Assembly: GCF_001549985.1 (NCBI RefSeq)
Contig: NZ_LROZ01000001.1
Coordinates: 372,001 to 436,000, forward strand
From: Myroides odoratus
GTDB taxonomy: Bacteria > Bacteroidota > Bacteroidia > Flavobacteriales > Flavobacteriaceae
Direction of reading: 5' to 3'
Length of the DNA stretch: 64,000 bases
Shown here: one piece after another, positions 16,292 through 23,132 of the stretch
Layout: each line of letters opens with the position of its first letter
How positions within the stretch are numbered: position 1 is the stretch's first letter
Made by a program: the position numbers and the translations under genes
The notes under the pieces: model-generated
Told to the model about the DNA's origin: nothing
Database searches by the model: none
The model's input: only the letters and a program-made list of their open reading frames with translations

Positions 16292-17473
16292 ATGACGACA
16301 AAAATTCAATTTAAATTAAGTAACGACATCCTTCTTACTGTTATTCAGATGGTTGAAAAAACGGATGACTATGTTGTACAATCTATAAAAGACGCTTTAT
16401 TGGTTAGTATAAAAGAGGATTTACTTGCTAAACTTGAAGACAAAGCCAAGAATATTCAGAAACAAGTTTCTATTTTAGACCACAATAAAAAGCATGTCAT
16501 CGTTTTAAAGTACCACGAAGCGTACACGATGTACAAACTTTTAGAGCTCGTTTATGAAAAAGAGACCTTTGCGGATCATCCACATATCAAAAAAATCAAG
16601 CGTTTATTGGTGGACTTGGAGAACAAAGTAGAAAGTTTTACAACAGAAAATAACCCGTCAGATATCGCTCAAACTGCAACTCCTGCTTTGGCTGGTTTCC
16701 CTCGTTTAGGGGTCAATGAAATTATCATTGAAGAAGCTACCATTTTGGAAGGAGAGATGAATGAAGAAATACAGGCTAATATACAAGAAGAGGAGGCTAA
16801 TCCGACTTTGGATCCTGCCATCGATATCAATGAAATAGTGGTGAAAAACTATTCCATTTTTGACCTTTTGGAAGAAAGTCATCCGGCAGATACACAAGCT
16901 GAAGAAACAGCAAGTAAAGCTATAGAAGTTATTGCTGAACCAGTTATTGCTTTAGATGAAACACCTCAAGAGGAAGAGAAAACGACTAGTACTGAAGAAG
17001 AGTCAATGGATGTTTTTGTTCAAACTACACTAGAAGAAGAACAAAAAGAACAAGAACCACCATTAGAAGAAGAAACAGGCATACAAGCAGAAGAACTCAC
17101 AGTTCCTATACTAGAAACTAGCACGGAAGAACCCGTGTTAGAAGAAGCTGTAGTTGAAGAAAACGAAGAAATTGTCGAAACAGCAACAACAATTGAAACA
17201 GAAAAAGAGGAAAAAGAAGAAGATGTTGTTCCCTTTTGGGCTCAACAAGCTCCACCTCCAATTTTTGATGGTATAGTTACTAAAACCTCAATTTGTATCG
17301 AAGCGGAAGAAGAAACAATGGCTTGTACAGAAGAAGAAGAAACACTCCATCTCTTTGAAGATATGGCTCTTCCCATCCAACCCTTAGAAGAAAAAGCGGA
17401 AAAGGAGGTCAAAAAAGAAAAAAGAAAACCAGCAAAAGACAATACCCAACAGGGGCAAATTAGTCTTTTCTAA
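16292..17473 (+). CDS. Acidic protein with C-terminal clamp-binding-like peptide
   Basis: I do not recognise the family. The 393-residue protein has a helical N-terminal domain (about 1-115, alternating charged and hydrophobic, no signal peptide), then some 240 residues extremely rich in Glu, Thr and Pro that should be disordered, then a basic patch KKEKRKPAKDN and a last stretch ending QISLF at the very C-terminus. QISLF fits the QL[SD]LF/QxxLF consensus by which polymerases and repair proteins bind the bacterial sliding clamp. This suggests a replication- or repair-associated role; it is an inference from five residues. It is divergent from the helicase at 16185 and ends in a strong terminator. 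Confidence 0.8.
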   Translation: MTTKIQFKLSNDILLTVIQMVEKTDDYVVQSIKDALLVSIKEDLLAKLEDKAKNIQKQVSILDHNKKHVIVLKYHEAYTMYKLLELVYEKETFADHPHIKKIKRLLVDLENKVESFTTENNPSDIAQTATPALAGFPRLGVNEIIIEEATILEGEMNEEIQANIQEEEANPTLDPAIDINEIVVKNYSIFDLLEESHPADTQAEETASKAIEVIAEPVIALDETPQEEEKTTSTEEESMDVFVQTTLEEEQKEQEPPLEEETGIQAEELTVPILETSTEEPVLEEAVVEENEEIVETATTIETEKEEKEEDVVPFWAQQAPPPIFDGIVTKTSICIEAEEETMACTEEEETLHLFEDMALPIQPLEEKAEKEVKKEKRKPAKDNTQQGQISLF

Positions 17474-17485
17474 AATAAGTGAATG

Positions 17486-17520
17486 AAGAGAGGTAGTGCT
17501 GGCACTACCTCTCTTTATTT
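17486..17520 (+). terminator. Intrinsic terminator after the acidic protein gene
   Basis: Fourteen-bp perfect stem AAGAGAGGTAGTGC with a 2-base loop, followed by TTATTT. It begins 13 bp after the stop codon. Confidence 0.85.
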
Positions 17521-17529
17521 CATCTCCAC

Positions 17530-18068
17530 ACCTCACCATCTCATCCCCTCACCATCTATCTCACTTATTTTATACTTGTTTTGGTGTTCGATGAATATAT
17601 CTCACTTATTTTATATTTGTTTTGGTGTTCGATGAATCTTCACTGCGTTTCGATTTGCACTGCGTTTCGATTCCTCACCCCCTCACCATCTATCTCACCT
17701 ATTATATATTTGCTTTGGTATTCGATGAATCTTCACTGCGTTTCGATTTCACCACCTCACCATCTCACCCCCTCACCCCCTCACCATCTATCTCACCTAT
17801 TTTATACTTGTTTTGGTGTTCGATGAATCTTCACTGCGTTTCGATTTTCACTGCGTTTCGATTTCACCACCTCACCATCTCACCCCCTCACCCCCTCACC
17901 CCCTCACCATCTATCTCACCTATTTTATACTTGTTTTGGTGTTCGATGAATCTTCACTTCGTTCCGATTCCTCACCATCTCACCACCTCACCCTCTATCT
18001 CACCTATTTTACATTTGCTTTGGTGTTCGATGAATCTTCGTTTCGATTTTCACCTCGTTCCGATTTCT
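17530..18068. repeat. Pyrimidine-rich tandem repeat of promoter-like units
   Basis: Six copies of a unit containing GGTGTTCGATGAAT (starts 17583, 17624, 17717, 17815, 17938, 18022) alternate with runs of CACCATCTCACCCCCT. Unit length varies from 41 to 123 bp with the number of CCCCCTCA micro-repeats. Many units also carry one or two copies of CACTGCGTTTCGATT. Three units contain an exact -7 box TAnnTTTG (17612, 17705, 18010) and the other three have TATACTTG at the same place. Frames stay open through the array, giving spurious proteins rich in Pro, His and Ser; none has a plausible family. The array ends 17 bp before the ABC-F leader promoter. Confidence 0.85.
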
Positions 18069-18085
18069 CAATAAAAATAAATCCC

Positions 18086-18093
18086 TATCTTTG
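18086..18093 (+). promoter_or_regulatory. -7 element of the ABC-F leader transcript
   Basis: Perfect TATCTTTG box. A start site about six bases downstream gives a leader of roughly 215 nt before the ABC-F start codon, long for this genome, where most leaders here are 15-35 nt. Confidence 0.6.
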
Positions 18094-18192
18094 TCCTAGT
18101 ATTAACGAATAAATAATCCGATGAAATTATAAATAAGTATTTCGTTTTAGTAATACGAGTTGTTTTCAACTTGTAAGAGCAAACATTTTCTA

Positions 18193-18309
18193 ATGGCATC
18201 TATCTTCCCTAGAGCCACAATACTTATTTATTTATGTGAATTCATCTCCAATGCCGTGAGTAGTGGTGTACGGGCCACAATAGTATATTACTCATTCATT
18301 TACATTTGA
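18193..18309 (+). CDS. Putative 38-residue leader peptide of the ABC-F gene
   Basis: An ATG opens 38 codons that stop six bases before the ABC-F start, in a different frame. The peptide contains an internal echo, RATILIYL and RATIVYYS, produced by a direct repeat GCCACAATA at 18214-18222 and 18274-18282. Between them lies GAGTAGTGG (18258-18266), whose GTGG can pair with the CCAC of either copy, giving two mutually exclusive hairpins. Translated leaders with switching hairpins control many antibiotic-resistance ABC-F genes by ribosome stalling. That mechanism is known for the family; its operation here is inferred. Confidence 0.5.
   Translation: MASIFPRATILIYLCEFISNAVSSGVRATIVYYSFIYI
18214..18293 (+). 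promoter_or_regulatory. Candidate attenuator: alternative hairpins in the ABC-F leader
   Basis: Hairpin A pairs CCAC (18215-18218) and ACT (18222-18224) with AGT (18259-18261) and GTGG (18263-18266). Hairpin B pairs GAGTA-GTGG (18258-18266) with CCAC (18275-18278) and TACTC (18289-18293). Both use the same GTGG, so only one can form at a time. A ribosome stalled in the leader ORF would choose between them. Confidence 0.45.
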
Positions 18310-18314
18310 TTATT

Positions 18315-19904
18315 ATGTCTATCGTTATAAAAAATCTATCCTACGAACATTCGGATAAAACACCTTTATTTCACCAGGTTGACCTTGTGCTGAACAAAGG
18401 AGAAAAAGCCAATCTAATTGGTGCAAACGGAACAGGTAAAAGTACCTTATTGAAGCTTATTGCTACTACATCACTCCCAGCTATTCAGCTCGGTGGTACA
18501 GCCTATTATTTACCTCAAATTAACACCAATCAAATGACGGGGCAAACCATTCAGGAAGCCTTACAAACAGATAAAAAACTACAAGCCTTACATCGCATTT
18601 TACAAGGCTCTGTAGAAGAACAGGATTATGTTGACTTAGATGATGATTGGCAAATTGAAGAAAATATTGCACAAGCACTTCAATACTGGCAACTAGAAGG
18701 AAAGGATTTGGCCCTTCCCATGCACCAATTGAGTGGAGGACAACAGATGCGCGTGTATTTTGCCTGCATTCACATCCATCAACCGGATATACTCCTGCTA
18801 GATGAGCCAACCAATCACATTGATCAAGCTACGCGACAAATGTTGTTTGACTTTTTGGATCAATACAGAGGCACAGTACTTATCGTGAGTCACGATATCG
18901 AACTATTAAATCGACAATCGCTTACGTTTGAAATTACCACACAAGGGATTCAAGCGTACAAAGGCAATTATGACTTTTACAACACACAAAAACAAGAGGA
19001 ATTATCTTCCCTTCAACATCGCATTGATACCCTTTCTAAGGATTTACGTCAAGTAAAAACAGACCAACAGAAACTACTTCAAAAGCAACAAAAAGCAGTA
19101 GGTCAACACAAAAAGGCAGAGCAAAAAGGCGGTTTGCCTAAGATTGTTGTCAATACACTAAAAAATGCAGCAGAAAATAGCAGTGCGAAAAGCACAGAAG
19201 TACAAGTAGAAAAACAACAAAAACTACAAGGCGAACTTTGGGAGTTAAAAGATCAGTTGGAACAAGTCAAACCCTTTCATTTGAACTTCAACCCTTCGCA
19301 CTTACATCCCAATAAGGTGTTGTTTCAGGTAAAAGAAGTCAACTATCAATATGACGCAACAGTAGCAGGTATATGGTCAACTCCCTTAAATCTAGAAATT
19401 CGAAGTGGAGAACGCCTTTTAATTGAGGGACCAAATGGTTCTGGGAAATCCACGTTATTGCATCTATTAGCAGGAAATCTACAACCTACTACAGGGCAGG
19501 TTGAGCGATTGACTCCCAATATGGTTTACTTGGATCAGTTTTATACCCTACTCAATCAGCACAAAACAATACTAGAACAAGCCCAAGCATTTAACCGCAA
19601 CTTACTGGATGAAGCTAGTTTAAAAAACACTTTATTTCAATATGGTTTTCGACCTGAAAGCTGGGCCAAACCAATTATGCAATTAAGTGGTGGGGAATGC
19701 CTGCGCTTAACTGTTTGTTGTTTGAATCTTTCCTTGCCTTCTATTGATGTATTGCTATTGGATGAACCGAGCAATAACCTAGATATTTTTGGCTTAGAAC
19801 GATTGTATCAAGCACTAAACCTATACCAAGGAACCATTGTATTTGTCTCCCACGATATCAATTTACGTCAAGCGATTCAACCCAATCGCGTCATTGAAAT
19901 GTAA
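18315..19904 (+). CDS. ABC-F family ATPase
   Basis: The 529-residue protein has two ABC domains and no membrane part. Domain 1: Walker A GANGTGKST, signature LSGGQQMRV, Walker B LLLDEPTNHID. Domain 2: GPNGSGKST, LSGGECLRLT, LLLDEPSNNLD. The linker between them (about 230-320) is long and rich in Lys and Gln, as in ABC-F proteins that reach into the ribosome. ABC-F proteins act on ribosomes, either in translation quality control or in protecting from antibiotics. I chose ATG 18315 (MSIVIKNLS) over an upstream TTG at 18306, since the leader ORF ends between them. The leader arrangement favours an inducible, resistance-type role, but the class cannot be fixed by eye. Confidence 0.9.
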   Translation: MSIVIKNLSYEHSDKTPLFHQVDLVLNKGEKANLIGANGTGKSTLLKLIATTSLPAIQLGGTAYYLPQINTNQMTGQTIQEALQTDKKLQALHRILQGSVEEQDYVDLDDDWQIEENIAQALQYWQLEGKDLALPMHQLSGGQQMRVYFACIHIHQPDILLLDEPTNHIDQATRQMLFDFLDQYRGTVLIVSHDIELLNRQSLTFEITTQGIQAYKGNYDFYNTQKQEELSSLQHRIDTLSKDLRQVKTDQQKLLQKQQKAVGQHKKAEQKGGLPKIVVNTLKNAAENSSAKSTEVQVEKQQKLQGELWELKDQLEQVKPFHLNFNPSHLHPNKVLFQVKEVNYQYDATVAGIWSTPLNLEIRSGERLLIEGPNGSGKSTLLHLLAGNLQPTTGQVERLTPNMVYLDQFYTLLNQHKTILEQAQAFNRNLLDEASLKNTLFQYGFRPESWAKPIMQLSGGECLRLTVCCLNLSLPSIDVLLLDEPSNNLDIFGLERLYQALNLYQGTIVFVSHDINLRQAIQPNRVIEM

Positions 19905-20307
19905 TTTTTATTTGAGGGGAAATAGCACAAAAATGCTAATGCTAACAAAAAGAAAAGCAGCCTTACCACACCATATGTCCTACTGACGAAGGAAGTTTCG
20001 CATCCATTTATCAACGCTTGTCAAAAACAAGATTAAAGAAGCGCTGGATGCGACCCTTCCTCCGTCAGGGTGACATCGCGCGTGTGAGTGCGGTACAGTT
20101 AAAAAAGGATAAATAATTGATTTTCAAACTAAAGAGCATTCCTACAAAAAGACAGCTCCTAAAAAAAAAATCAAAAGAAAATGGAGATTCATAGAATGTC
20201 AAAACAAGATAGCAATCCTATAAGATAAAAGCAGACCTATCCTACTCTTCTATAAAGCTTGAAAAATTATCCCTTTTATTTTTCTAATGGTTATACAGTT
20301 CCAACAC
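19905..20307. other. Gene-free stretch holding palindromic element copy 1
   Basis: Apart from the 102-bp element at 19975-20076 I see no coding region, RNA gene or convincing terminator here. The stretch separates the convergent ABC-F and immunity-like genes. Confidence 0.6.
19975..20076 (+). repeat. 102-bp palindromic element, copy 1
   Basis: Two imperfect inverted arms of 32 bp (19975-20006 and 20045-20076; arm 2 reads TGGATGCGACCCTTCC then TCCGTCAGGGTGACAT) flank a 38-bp centre that has its own small hairpin CTTGT-caaaa-ACAAG. Copy 2 at 23787-23888 has the same length and orientation, with an identical centre and second arm and only three differences in the first arm. Looks like a REP/MITE-type dispersed element; it encodes nothing. 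Confidence 0.85.
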
Positions 20308-20646
20308 CTAACTATTCGCTTCTACAAAATCTTTAAAATCTTTTAGAAAATCAATAAAAGTGTCGTGAGGTAAAATCAAATCTGCATCTTTTTGTTGACT
20401 ATTCAAATCAAAAAACTGAACTCCATAGTCATTACTATATATATACAAATCGTCTCCCTCCGTCTGATATTTATATTCTTTATCCGTATCTTTGGTAGAA
20501 AGGATTCCATCTATCAGTTGCTGAATAATTTGTGGTGTCCAATATGAAAACCTTAATAAGGTGATTGGATAAAAATCATCATCTTCAACATCTATATCAT
20601 ACAGAACAGAATTAGATATCTTATACTTCGAAAATTTATATTTCAT
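20308..20646 (-). CDS. Putative immunity protein for the EndoU toxin
   Basis: I do not recognise the family. The 112-residue protein is acidic (many Asp and Glu), has no signal peptide or membrane span, and lies 11 bp downstream of the toxin gene on the same strand. That is the standard place for a cognate immunity gene in polymorphic toxin loci. Aromatic and acidic patches such as DIDVEDDDFYP and YIYSNDYGVQFFD would suit binding to a basic nuclease. Function rests on position and charge only. Confidence 0.6.
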   Translation of the reverse strand: MKYKFSKYKISNSVLYDIDVEDDDFYPITLLRFSYWTPQIIQQLIDGILSTKDTDKEYKYQTEGDDLYIYSNDYGVQFFDLNSQQKDADLILPHDTFIDFLKDFKDFVEANS

Positions 20647-20657
20647 ATTATTAAATT

Positions 20658-23132
20658 TTACATTTTTGGATAAGCATTTAAAATTTTCCCATAGTCATCA
20701 GTTTCTAGAACTATATCAAATCTACTTGTTGATTCTCCAATAAACTTATTTAATATTCCTTTCTTTTTTTTAGGAATTTGTCCTACTCCTTTCGCCACAG
20801 TATTTTCATAAACAAAAGCTATTTCTTGTTTAATCCGTTCTAAATCCCAATTACTTGGAAACATAGAACTCATTGCTTCTTTTTCTAACCAGCCATCTCT
20901 GTATTTTACATAAATTCTGGTTCTATACGGCTGATTAACTCTTGGAGGATTAGGAATCGGTTTGCCTTTAAGTCTAATTGTTTTACCTATTGCTGCTGAA
21001 CTGTGCCCCCCTTCTGAAACTAATACTTCCATTTTATAACCTGTTCGATGGCTTTCTATTAATAACGTATTAAACTCACCATTTAAGTGATTATAAAAAG
21101 TAGGATCTATCTTATCTCCCCATCTCCTCAAAGCATTTACACGTAGATAACTATTTTCTAAATTAGTTACAAGTTCCTTACTCTTAGCTCCAAAAACCTC
21201 ATCTAAACTATTTCTTACCGTTTTAGCATCTCCACTAGCGAGTACTTCTCCTTTATAAACGACAACCAGACCTTCTTTACCAGCTTTTCCACCAACCATC
21301 TCACCTTTAACAAACAACACACCCGCTTCTTGTAAACGACTAACCTCACTCATTCGAATTACGGTCGACGTGGTACGGGAGACTTCTTCACTTGTAGTGA
21401 GTACAGTAAGTGTATGCGTAGTAAAGTTAGGAATATTTAATTCCATTACTAAACGCAATAAGCTACTTCTTAGAAAGTTTTTTGTCGTTGTAGTAATTGC
21501 TTTGTTTAGCAATTTTACTCCTGTGGTAAATACACTACTTACAAGTAGAGGTCCTACTGCAGTGATACTTCCCGCTAAATATATCTTTTCCCAATTTGCT
21601 AAGAATTCCCTCCCCTCTTCTGTTTGCATTAAAGGATCTTGACTCACAGCAATCAAGGTATCTGTTGTGGCTAAGGAAATATCAATAAGACCTAACCCTA
21701 TTAAAAGCGGGCTACCAGAGCCTAATGTGGCAATACCTAATACAATTGCTAGCACATTACCTCCTATACGCAGTACTAAAGCAATATCTTGCCATTCTTC
21801 TTCATCGGCTATTGCCTTTACATAAATAGCGGGTACTTGATAAGGTATCCCCTCCCTTTCATCCATATTCATCAGCAATACAGCCGCTAAAGGATCATAA
21901 TAAGTACCTTCATTTTCAGCTGTGTAAGTAGTGATATCTACTTCTATTTGCTCCTTATATCGCGGAATATCCTCTAAAGGAGTTAGTGTTTTCTTCTCCT
22001 TTTCCCCTACTAATTGCTGCAAATAAATCTTGTCCTTAAATTTATCCGAACGAGCTAGCACATTGCTATTTAGCTTATAATCCGCTCCAATTTTAAATAC
22101 AGCCCCTGTCTTTATTGCTCCTTGGTATTGATTACTTAAACTCAACGCATATAAAAAGTCAGCAAAAATCATCCGATTTTTTTGTGTTATACCATCAATA
22201 GTAGAAACACCATCCATATTTTGATATAATTCCTTGACCAATATGGGATTATTTAGAAATAGATGGTAGACTAACTTGCTATCTCCTAGAACGCGTAACA
22301 AATTAATTATCGCTCCACTACTATCCCTAAAAGCGCTAAAATACCCCATATCATCGTAGCTTTTCAAAATACTAAGATGTTCTACAACAAGTTTAAATTC
22401 CAGGAATGGCCGTATCCATTCAAAAGCAAAATCAGGAATAGTTTCGTATAAAAACTTAAGTTCTGAAGCACTAGTTGCACCTAAAATCTTTTGAACATAC
22501 TTTTTTGCTATTTGCTGTCGGACATAGTTAGCCTCTCTTTTTCCTGCAATTACTTCAACCAAAGCACAAAAATCAGTAAAGTCCTCACTTGTTAAACTCA
22601 CTGCAATATATTTTTCTGCTATTCTAAAATCATTGATATCTATCGTATCAGAGGCATTCTTTCTATACTTTTCCGTGTTTTCATAATAAAAACACAGGCT
22701 ACCAGCTATATAATTTTTTATAGGGTCGAGATGCAACATAAATGCCCATCCTTCTTCTAGATAATCTATTCTTTTATTCAATAATGCAGCAATGGCTACT
22801 TCAATCTTTTGGTTATTTTCATTGGTATAAACAAAAGGTACATTATGTGCTATCACATTGATTCTGGGTATAAAGCCTCCCTCACCATCTCTCACATTAA
22901 CCGAAGTATAAGAAGAGGGTGCTGCAAATGCTGTCCAATTAAAAAGAAGGCTACTGTCAACAACAGTATCATGTAGAAAGCGGATTAACTGTGGAAATTT
23001 AATTCCTTCTCCTATTTTTGACCCGTAGAAATCTGCTTTATACTCACCTGTATCAGGCACAGGTTGCTCAAAAGCAGTACCCTCACGCATTTCTTTCCAA
23101 ACATCCCGTGAGAAATTATTAAAATTATTCAT
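20658..23132 (-). CDS. Polymorphic toxin with C-terminal EndoU-type RNase domain
   Basis: The 824-residue protein has a long N-terminal part I cannot assign (1-440), two hydrophobic stretches (about 450-496 and 518-541) that may cross or insert into a membrane, and a C-terminal domain (about 690-824) resembling bacterial EndoU nucleases. The latter shows a His pair (SHRTG at H695, GGHSS at H710), a Lys-rich middle, SSMFPSNWDLERI (about 755-767) and a final NAYP, as in that family. Bacterial EndoU toxins cut RNA, often tRNA, in competitors. There is no N-terminal signal peptide, so delivery by a contractile or other specialised system is likely. An immunity-like gene follows at once, and the locus is bracketed by palindromic repeats. 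Confidence 0.72.
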   Translation of the reverse strand: MNNFNNFSRDVWKEMREGTAFEQPVPDTGEYKADFYGSKIGEGIKFPQLIRFLHDTVVDSSLLFNWTAFAAPSSYTSVNVRDGEGGFIPRINVIAHNVPFVYTNENNQKIEVAIAALLNKRIDYLEEGWAFMLHLDPIKNYIAGSLCFYYENTEKYRKNASDTIDINDFRIAEKYIAVSLTSEDFTDFCALVEVIAGKREANYVRQQIAKKYVQKILGATSASELKFLYETIPDFAFEWIRPFLEFKLVVEHLSILKSYDDMGYFSAFRDSSGAIINLLRVLGDSKLVYHLFLNNPILVKELYQNMDGVSTIDGITQKNRMIFADFLYALSLSNQYQGAIKTGAVFKIGADYKLNSNVLARSDKFKDKIYLQQLVGEKEKKTLTPLEDIPRYKEQIEVDITTYTAENEGTYYDPLAAVLLMNMDEREGIPYQVPAIYVKAIADEEEWQDIALVLRIGGNVLAIVLGIATLGSGSPLLIGLGLIDISLATTDTLIAVSQDPLMQTEEGREFLANWEKIYLAGSITAVGPLLVSSVFTTGVKLLNKAITTTTKNFLRSSLLRLVMELNIPNFTTHTLTVLTTSEEVSRTTSTVIRMSEVSRLQEAGVLFVKGEMVGGKAGKEGLVVVYKGEVLASGDAKTVRNSLDEVFGAKSKELVTNLENSYLRVNALRRWGDKIDPTFYNHLNGEFNTLLIESHRTGYKMEVLVSEGGHSSAAIGKTIRLKGKPIPNPPRVNQPYRTRIYVKYRDGWLEKEAMSSMFPSNWDLERIKQEIAFVYENTVAKGVGQIPKKKKGILNKFIGESTSRFDIVLETDDYGKILNAYPKM

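Follow-up and report, generated by a model that had tools for sequence, protein, structure and literature searches.

Very short upstream reading frames and start-masking arms in the leaders of a ribosomal-protection-like ABC-F gene of Myroides odoratus and its relatives: candidate translational attenuators

An ABC-F ATPase gene of Myroides odoratus (Bacteroidota; Flavobacteriales; Flavobacteriaceae) is preceded by a long leader, and the question raised by this locus is whether, and by which parts, this leader controls the gene. The locus was analyzed in a window of 64,000 nucleotides (nt), which is the whole stretch of DNA under study (assembly GCF_001549985.1, contig NZ_LROZ01000001.1, positions 372,001 to 436,000 of the forward strand); positions given below are those of the window. 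The leader is conserved and structured: the stretch 18101-18380 folds better than 200 of 200 shuffled sequences (z -3.36), and a conserved, very short upstream open reading frame (uORF) was found, by sequence only, in 11/11 leaders of the window type (class A) and in 124/124 distinct leaders of a sister ABC-F group (class B). We propose, with a probability of roughly 0.7, that these leaders act by ribosome-mediated translational attenuation, in which a ribosome frozen by a drug on a minimal or start-stop uORF would open the ABC-F start.

To compile the leaders, genomes were searched with the ABC-F protein in sets of 60, 398 (a genus draw), and 395. In the genus draw, the gene was retrieved at E values up to 1e-70 in 98 of the 398 genomes, at 99 places, and all 99 leaders were read: 11 belonged to class A and 88 to class B. 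The two classes are split by a single branch on a quick ABC-F tree of 63 rows (53 of them class B), a tree that came with long-branch warnings. One genome (G382) has two ABC-F genes (L033 and L085), one with a class A and the other with a class B leader.

The anatomy of the class A leader is summarized in the table. Its -7 box, already recognized in the initial annotation of this DNA, matches the flavobacterial sigma-A consensus TAnnTTTG, which is placed at -12 to -5 in PMC9723704; the transcript is therefore predicted to start near 18098, and the resulting leader of about 217 nt agrees with the ~215 nt suggested before. The TTTG of this box ends 27-28 nt before uORF1 in all 11 class A leaders. 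uORF1 has 3 or 5 codons, which vary between a fixed start and a fixed stop (MKL in two leaders, MDI in two, MYTAK in three, and MKI, MYTSK, MYIAE, and MIITE in one each). A second uORF, uORF2, consists of a start codon followed directly by a stop codon in 10 of the 11 leaders (ATGTGA in six, ATGTAA in one, GTGTAA in three; the eleventh reads GTGTATATATAA) and begins 19-22 nt upstream of a conserved core. No terminator-like site was found at 18000-18400, so that a transcription terminator was rejected for the window leader, and by eye no stretch resembling a Shine-Dalgarno (SD) sequence precedes the ABC-F ATG of the window; the start codon and its neighbors are paired instead.

Features of the ABC-F locus, with the basis of each assignment
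Feature	Positions	Strand	Basis or remark
-7 box TATCTTTG (TAnnTTTG)	18086-18093	+	Sequence; spacing to the uORF in both classes
5' arm AACGAATAAATAATC	18104-18118	+	Complementary to the ABC-F start region, 18308-18327
uORF1 ATGAAATTATAA (Met-Lys-Leu-stop)	18121-18132	+	Equivalent position in 11/11 class A leaders
uORF1 tail, predicted helix H1	18128-18142	+	Partner 18218-18232
Segment S, approach to uORF2	18218-18232	+	H1 partner of the uORF1 tail
uORF2, start-stop ATGTGA	18234-18239	+	Comparison of 11 class A leaders
Near-invariant core CCGTGAGTAGTGGTGTACGGGCCAC	18254-18278	+	GTGG/CCAC stem; possible second pairing CCGT/ACGG
ATTACTCA, predicted helix H3 with core TGAGTAGT	18287-18294	+	Two clades only
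ABC-F start region, predicted to be masked by the 5' arm	18308-18327	+	Folding, covariation, duplex comparison
ABC-F ATPase, ribosomal-protection-like	18315-19904	+	529 amino acids; family models and Foldseek
38-codon ORF of the initial annotation	18193-18309	+	Ends 5 nt before the ABC-F ATG (18315); outside the proposed mechanism

Two pairings of the class A leader covary in the alignments and are predicted as its switching elements, namely, that of the 5' arm with the ABC-F start region and that of the uORF1 tail with the approach to uORF2. (i) The first was predicted unprompted by RNAalifold from 8 of the 11 class A leaders (two leaders with a 160-nt insert and L126 were omitted), and at 6 of its 16 pairs, one or more leaders had changes on both sides. 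In 10 class A leaders (all except L126), matched arm-start duplexes had a mean energy of -12.1 kcal/mol, versus -7.1 kcal/mol for combinations across clades. The two leaders with the insert (L035 and L037) have gained ~160 nt between the core and the ABC-F start (at about 1308-1500 in these loci), and their starts still fit the 5' arm. When the comparison was extended to 31 leaders, which were chosen by hand for diversity with odd arms included, the matched mean was -14.33 kcal/mol versus -9.19 kcal/mol for foreign combinations, and none of 20,000 permutations was as low. (ii) For H1, the mean duplex energies within the three clades were -11.0, -10.7, and -13.5 kcal/mol, and those of foreign combinations were -2.9 to -11.4 kcal/mol; a compensatory change is seen in CTAAGTA with TACTTAG, which is matched elsewhere by CTGAGTA with TACTCAG. 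Two further pairings fared differently. H3 reached own-clade means of -8.3 and -6.2 kcal/mol in two clades and fails in the third (-1.3 kcal/mol), and for another possible pairing, between segment S and the core, own and foreign partners differed little, so that we do not claim it.

These elements are not those on which the initial annotation had relied. It had proposed that stalling of the ribosome by a leader peptide of 38 codons flips two exclusive hairpins, made by the CCAC of a duplicated GCCACAATA with one shared GTGG. Both copies and the GTGG are present in the window, and the ORF is intact in the 94% relative. However, when any ATG or GTG frame was accepted whose start lies upstream of the core and whose end is no more than 15 nt from the ABC-F start, the ORF was found in only 2 of the 11 class A leaders; it is missing in the other nine, including the 86% and 82% relatives, and in one other leader, a frame of 71 codons with a TTG start lies in its place. 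The first CCAC (the GCCAC copy) is missing in the same nine leaders, whereas the second is kept with GTGG in nine of the 11 and appears as CCAT with ATGG in the other two. Aligned across relatives, the ORF is thus broken, which contradicts the proposal on its own terms, and the internal echo RATILIYL / RATIVYYS, taken as a possible stall module, falls together with it. As a conserved mechanism, the 38-codon ORF/CCAC switch is refuted, and we consider it highly improbable that it governs this gene. What held was the more general idea: exclusive pairings are predicted, although between other segments, and control of the ABC-F gene by a short reading frame and such pairings is very probable. The initial annotation had listed none of the conserved parts: uORF1 (18121), the 5' arm, the start-stop uORF2 (18234), and the core (18254).

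The class B leader is shorter and consists of a start-stop uORF with an arm predicted to mask the ABC-F start directly behind it. The uORF is an ATG or GTG with an immediate stop codon in 121 of the 124 distinct leaders (TGA in 77, TAG in 30, TAA in 14), and the remaining three read ML-stop (two) and MLV-stop (one); L228 and L229, both with ATGTAG, stand outside this count. A conserved stalling peptide of the erm type was therefore not found in either class, since the class A peptides vary and 121/124 class B uORFs have no residue after Met. On the quick tree, the class B label of stop codon and length changes five times. The distance from TAnnTTTG to the uORF start is 22-30 nt in 122 of 123 distinct leaders; in flanking DNA, a start-stop lies at this distance behind 3 of 420 such boxes. 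In the leaders with TGA, the sequence ATGTGA holds a GTG in another frame, and since initiation at AUGUG has been reported in Escherichia coli (PMC9841429), this overlapping frame might be the working one. The length of the GTG frame differs by eye among the TGA leaders, and the 44 of 121 leaders with TAA or TAG have no overlapping GTG; we give this possibility almost no credence.

The class B arm is usually AATTTCTTTC and pairs with the ABC-F start sequence, usually GAAAGAAATT before the ATG. In an alignment of 71 class B-type leaders fitted to the structure (73 loci were given, of which L214 and L215 were unmatched), 90.3% of the cells were paired and the covariation amounted to 0.320, versus 0.151 for shuffled and at most 0.077 for slid alignments, and all nine pairs of a hairpin between the arm and the start had changed on both sides. 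For 35 of 69 representatives with a structure given by hand, which supplied the model used to align the 71, the observed value was reached in 1 of 500 shuffles for cells paired, in 5 for covariation, in 86 for changes on both sides, and in 218 for further pair types. When 72 class B leaders were aligned with MAFFT, RNAalifold predicted no pair; we suspect that the middle hairpin was misaligned. A covariance model of the class B leader, searched with the stricter filters of Infernal at E values up to 0.01, gave a single match per genome in 87 of the 398 genomes of the genus draw. Eighty-six of these matches directly precede the ABC-F places, and the one remaining precedes an ABC-F copy that is broken; L005 and L139 were missed. 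Within this search, the class B element is tied to this ABC-F gene alone. The broken-looking copy, behind leader L208, belongs to a genome of 89% completeness (G107) and may reflect decay or an assembly error.

Is the element restricted to the order? In another draw of 395 genomes, 32 contained a homologue at E values up to 1e-60, of which 17 were outside the order. By eye, a uORF with one to five codons was picked out before 12 of these 17: M-stop in four, MKI-stop from GTG in four and from ATG in one, and MK-stop, MRI-stop, and MKISK-stop in one each. In 11 of the 12 leaders, an adjoining arm pairs with the leader's own ABC-F start, often with new letters, as in ATCTTTTC with GAAAAGAT and ATATAAACTC with GAGTTTATAT, and nine of these 11 arms are surpassed in pairing by no more than 2 of 30 foreign ones. 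Of the loci read, L224 and L230 were unreadable (contig edge, fragment), and L216, L218, L226, and L227 have no such leader. L216, a homologue outside the order, has its -7 box 7 nt before the ATG and is apparently leaderless.

The core of the class A leader has 25-26 nt, is nearly invariant in the alignment of all 11 leaders, and occurs also in Myroides albus and M. pelagicus. A sequence model of the core gave one match each in 10 of 338 genomes (the eleventh, with a borderline E value of 0.0096, was not counted), and this search revealed no new class A member. A coding function of the core was rejected, since its GTG frame reads VR-stop in two species. A near-invariant, noncoding core is what would be expected of an RNA that binds a ligand or senses temperature, similar to a riboswitch, with the uORFs being incidental. 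This reading leaves the conserved start and stop codons unexplained, and the core was not seen in class B leaders, whereas the start-stop frame and the arm persist there. In addition, none of eight leader sources matched Rfam at the gathering score, on which grounds a known Rfam family was rejected, and in the window at 17400-20660, no match at E values up to 1 fell within the leader and three weak ones lay outside it. Taken together, a riboswitch-like function appears quite improbable.

As to the gene itself, the identification of an ABC-F protein was borne out. The best curated family is NF000355 (ribosomal protection-like ABC-F), with 353.9 bits, ahead of Vga (239.5) and Sal (235.4); the best E value of NF000355 over 30 ABC-F members was 4.9e-118. 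Because the score of the window protein is under the curated cut-off of 380, we refer to the protein, from its sequence, as ribosomal-protection-like and not as a member of NF000355. The predicted model (mean predicted local distance difference test score of 86.6) has a long helical linker at residues 219-318. Foldseek placed PoxtA first, EttA next, and YbiT and Uup near, so that resistance and housekeeping ABC-F proteins could not be separated for the window protein, and a sequence search of the PDB returned human ABCF1 first, followed by VmlR and VmlR2 and then by Uup. Since PoxtA is closely trailed by housekeeping proteins and the PDB order is mixed, we call a role in resistance likely on the basis of the sequence; such a protein would protect against drugs that act at the peptidyl-transferase center (PTC). 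A plasmid search gave no match.

How could such short frames control this gene? Calculations in which a ribosome-sized mask was laid on the leader indicate an answer. With the mask on uORF1, the cost of opening uORF2 fell in all 11 class A leaders from 7.4-13.2 to 2.6-4.6 kcal/mol, the means for masks elsewhere being 5.6-10.9 kcal/mol; in the window, it fell from 8.6 to 2.6 kcal/mol, with an average of 7.1 kcal/mol for masks elsewhere. The same mask lowered the cost of opening the ABC-F start by 1.6-4.7 kcal/mol in 9 of the 11 leaders, and masks elsewhere changed it little on average. With the mask on the class B uORF, the cost of opening the ABC-F start was reduced by over 1 kcal/mol in 125 of 127 cases.

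We therefore envisage the following sequence of events for class A, in which uORF1, presumably translated, would be the first element exposed on a transcript that begins near 18098. In the absence of a drug, ribosomes would complete Met-Lys-Leu and depart, after which the ABC-F start region, made about 190 nt later, would be paired with the 5' arm and the approach to uORF2 with the uORF1 tail, so that both starts would be closed. A drug that freezes the ribosome at or just after initiation would keep it on uORF1, where it would cover the 5' arm and the tail and leave uORF2 and the ABC-F start free. The core may relay a second stage at uORF2, which is a guess. In class B, the start-stop uORF and the masking arm that immediately follows it would serve the same purpose. 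Flavobacterium mRNAs are reported to lack SD sequences and to have their initiation tuned by structure around the start (PMC6847099), and control by start-codon masking would come naturally to such mRNAs. The signal sensed is probably a PTC drug. Arrest at the start codon by such drugs is described as the proposed or shown trigger for the uORFs MIN, MK[L/Q], MR[I/M], and MLV of Gram-positive ABC-F genes (PMC9226507, PMC10201436, PMC12421871), and the drugs would presumably also block release at a stop codon right after AUG. The ABC-F gene would then be inducible by antibiotic, with pleuromutilins, lincosamides, and streptogramin A as candidates.

The support for the arm-start pairing, together with the structural tuning of Flavobacterium translation just cited, would also agree with constant masking of the start codon, for a low level of expression or a response to cold or stress, in which ribosomes on the uORF merely compete and no drug is sensed. 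Constant masking does not require a start codon and a kept stop codon, whichever of the three, at a fixed distance beside the arm, and the gene is ribosomal-protection-like, a kind that in Gram-positive bacteria uses uORFs of 3-4 codons as drug sensors. We consider constant masking unlikely.

A number of observations weigh against drug-responsive attenuation through these uORFs. (i) The covariation is limited in places. The covariation term of the whole class A fold is small (-0.73 kcal/mol), second-clade arms suit first-clade starts as strongly as their own, and the uORF1 tails of the third clade suit second-clade partners better than the second clade's own tails do. In class B, the arm-start helix varies so little that only 3 of 10 pairs change on both sides in the fitted alignment, and none do in the unfitted alignment of 35 leaders. 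(ii) The calculated relief of the ABC-F start is uneven. It is modest in the window (from 7.1 to 5.5, i.e., 1.6 kcal/mol) and just 0.1 and 0.7 kcal/mol in two relatives; in L034, L035, and L126, some mask elsewhere relieves the start more. In class B, masks elsewhere also lowered the cost on average in 120 of 127 cases, so that the calculation does not single out the class B uORF. (iii) The folded leader hides uORF1 as well (8.0 kcal/mol), and ribosome loading must therefore occur during transcription. (iv) Outside the order, where choosing the uORFs by eye is itself a weakness, the own arms of L214 and L219 are surpassed in pairing by 9 and 12 of 30 foreign ones, respectively, L210 has a five-codon uORF and no fitting arm, and 5 of the 17 homologues have no such leader, look leaderless, or lie at a contig edge. 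(v) Neither the core nor the need for two uORFs in Myroides is explained by the model.

The intergenic region before the leader is filled by six copies of a 98-nt unit at 17517-18053 (66-100% to the reference copy). The motif TTTTGGTGTTCGATGAAT of this unit occurs at 68 places in the genome with up to one mismatch (0 for the reversed control), which marks it as a dispersed repeat. The repeats at 17500-17999 have CTCACCCC runs and a strong GC skew (-0.55), and runs of a similar kind are also seen before this gene in the 94% relative (L031).

Going beyond the main proposal, we regard as evenly balanced the chance that start-stop attenuators across the phylum read whether an initiating 70S ribosome leaves its AUG, with nothing beyond formyl-methionine being made, and that Myroides elaborates them into a two-stage relay, in which occupancy of a uORF1 of 3-5 codons opens a start-stop uORF2 that lies 19-22 nt upstream of a rigid core. 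If true, drug-responsive uORFs would need no peptide, the logic of vmlR would reach a phylum that initiates without SD sequences, and many flavobacteria would have a mechanism for inducible intrinsic resistance; the leader would also be a simple reporter for PTC drugs. The question thus raised is whether a PTC drug can hold a ribosome on an AUG while a stop codon occupies its A site.

In searches of the open-access literature, we found no bacterial start-stop drug sensor and, in line with the initial annotation, no uORF or leader of this kind described for a Bacteroidota ABC-F gene. In attenuators of the ermC type, a ribosome on a leader ORF likewise decides between exclusive pairings. A specific stalling peptide is required there, whereas the uORFs described here have 0-4 residues after Met that are not conserved. 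Within the phylum, a tetQ leader of CTnDOT with a short leader peptide was reportedly described by Wang et al. in 2005. This Bacteroides leader similarly provides translational attenuation of a ribosomal protection gene (PMC5418344) but differs in the drug (tetracycline), the protein family, and the leader; short ORFs have also been reported in Bacteroides leaders. In the same bacterial family, Flavobacterium psychrophilum, for which a map of 64 structured 5' regions is reported, has leader-ORF control of amino acid operons (PMC9723704), although there it concerns amino acid biosynthesis and operates by transcription attenuation. toiL-topAI of E. coli is described as a uORF that senses several ribosome drugs, the stalled initiating ribosome freeing a downstream start (PMC12121999), but its uORF is longer and has conserved residues, its target is a toxin-antitoxin system and not an ABC-F gene, and it is SD based. 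Ribosome stalling on a start-stop as a sensor is reported for the AUGUAA uORF of Arabidopsis NIP5;1 (PMC11915504), a eukaryotic case that involves boron and mRNA decay and implies no kinship.

The closest counterparts are the leaders of vmlR, vmlR2, cplR, lsaA, and vgaL in Firmicutes, which are likewise reported to have a uORF of 3-4 codons (MIN, MK[L/Q], MR[I/M], MAGN) before an ABC-F gene; one reported uORF form of VmlR2 is identical to the MKL of the window. For vmlR, the start codon of the uORF is reported to be essential, several peptide variants work, and arrest of initiation opens the downstream gene (PMC9226507, PMC10201436). An intrinsic terminator and a hidden SD sequence are present in vmlR and cplR, whereas neither was found in the window leader, where the arm is predicted to hide the start codon itself, and the vmlR-type uORFs have 3-4 codons, whereas those of class B are reduced to a start plus a stop. 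The attenuation logic is thus that of vmlR and cplR and hence known; new are its parts, namely, the lack, in the window leader, of a terminator and of a visible SD sequence, the direct masking of the start, and the start-stop uORF.

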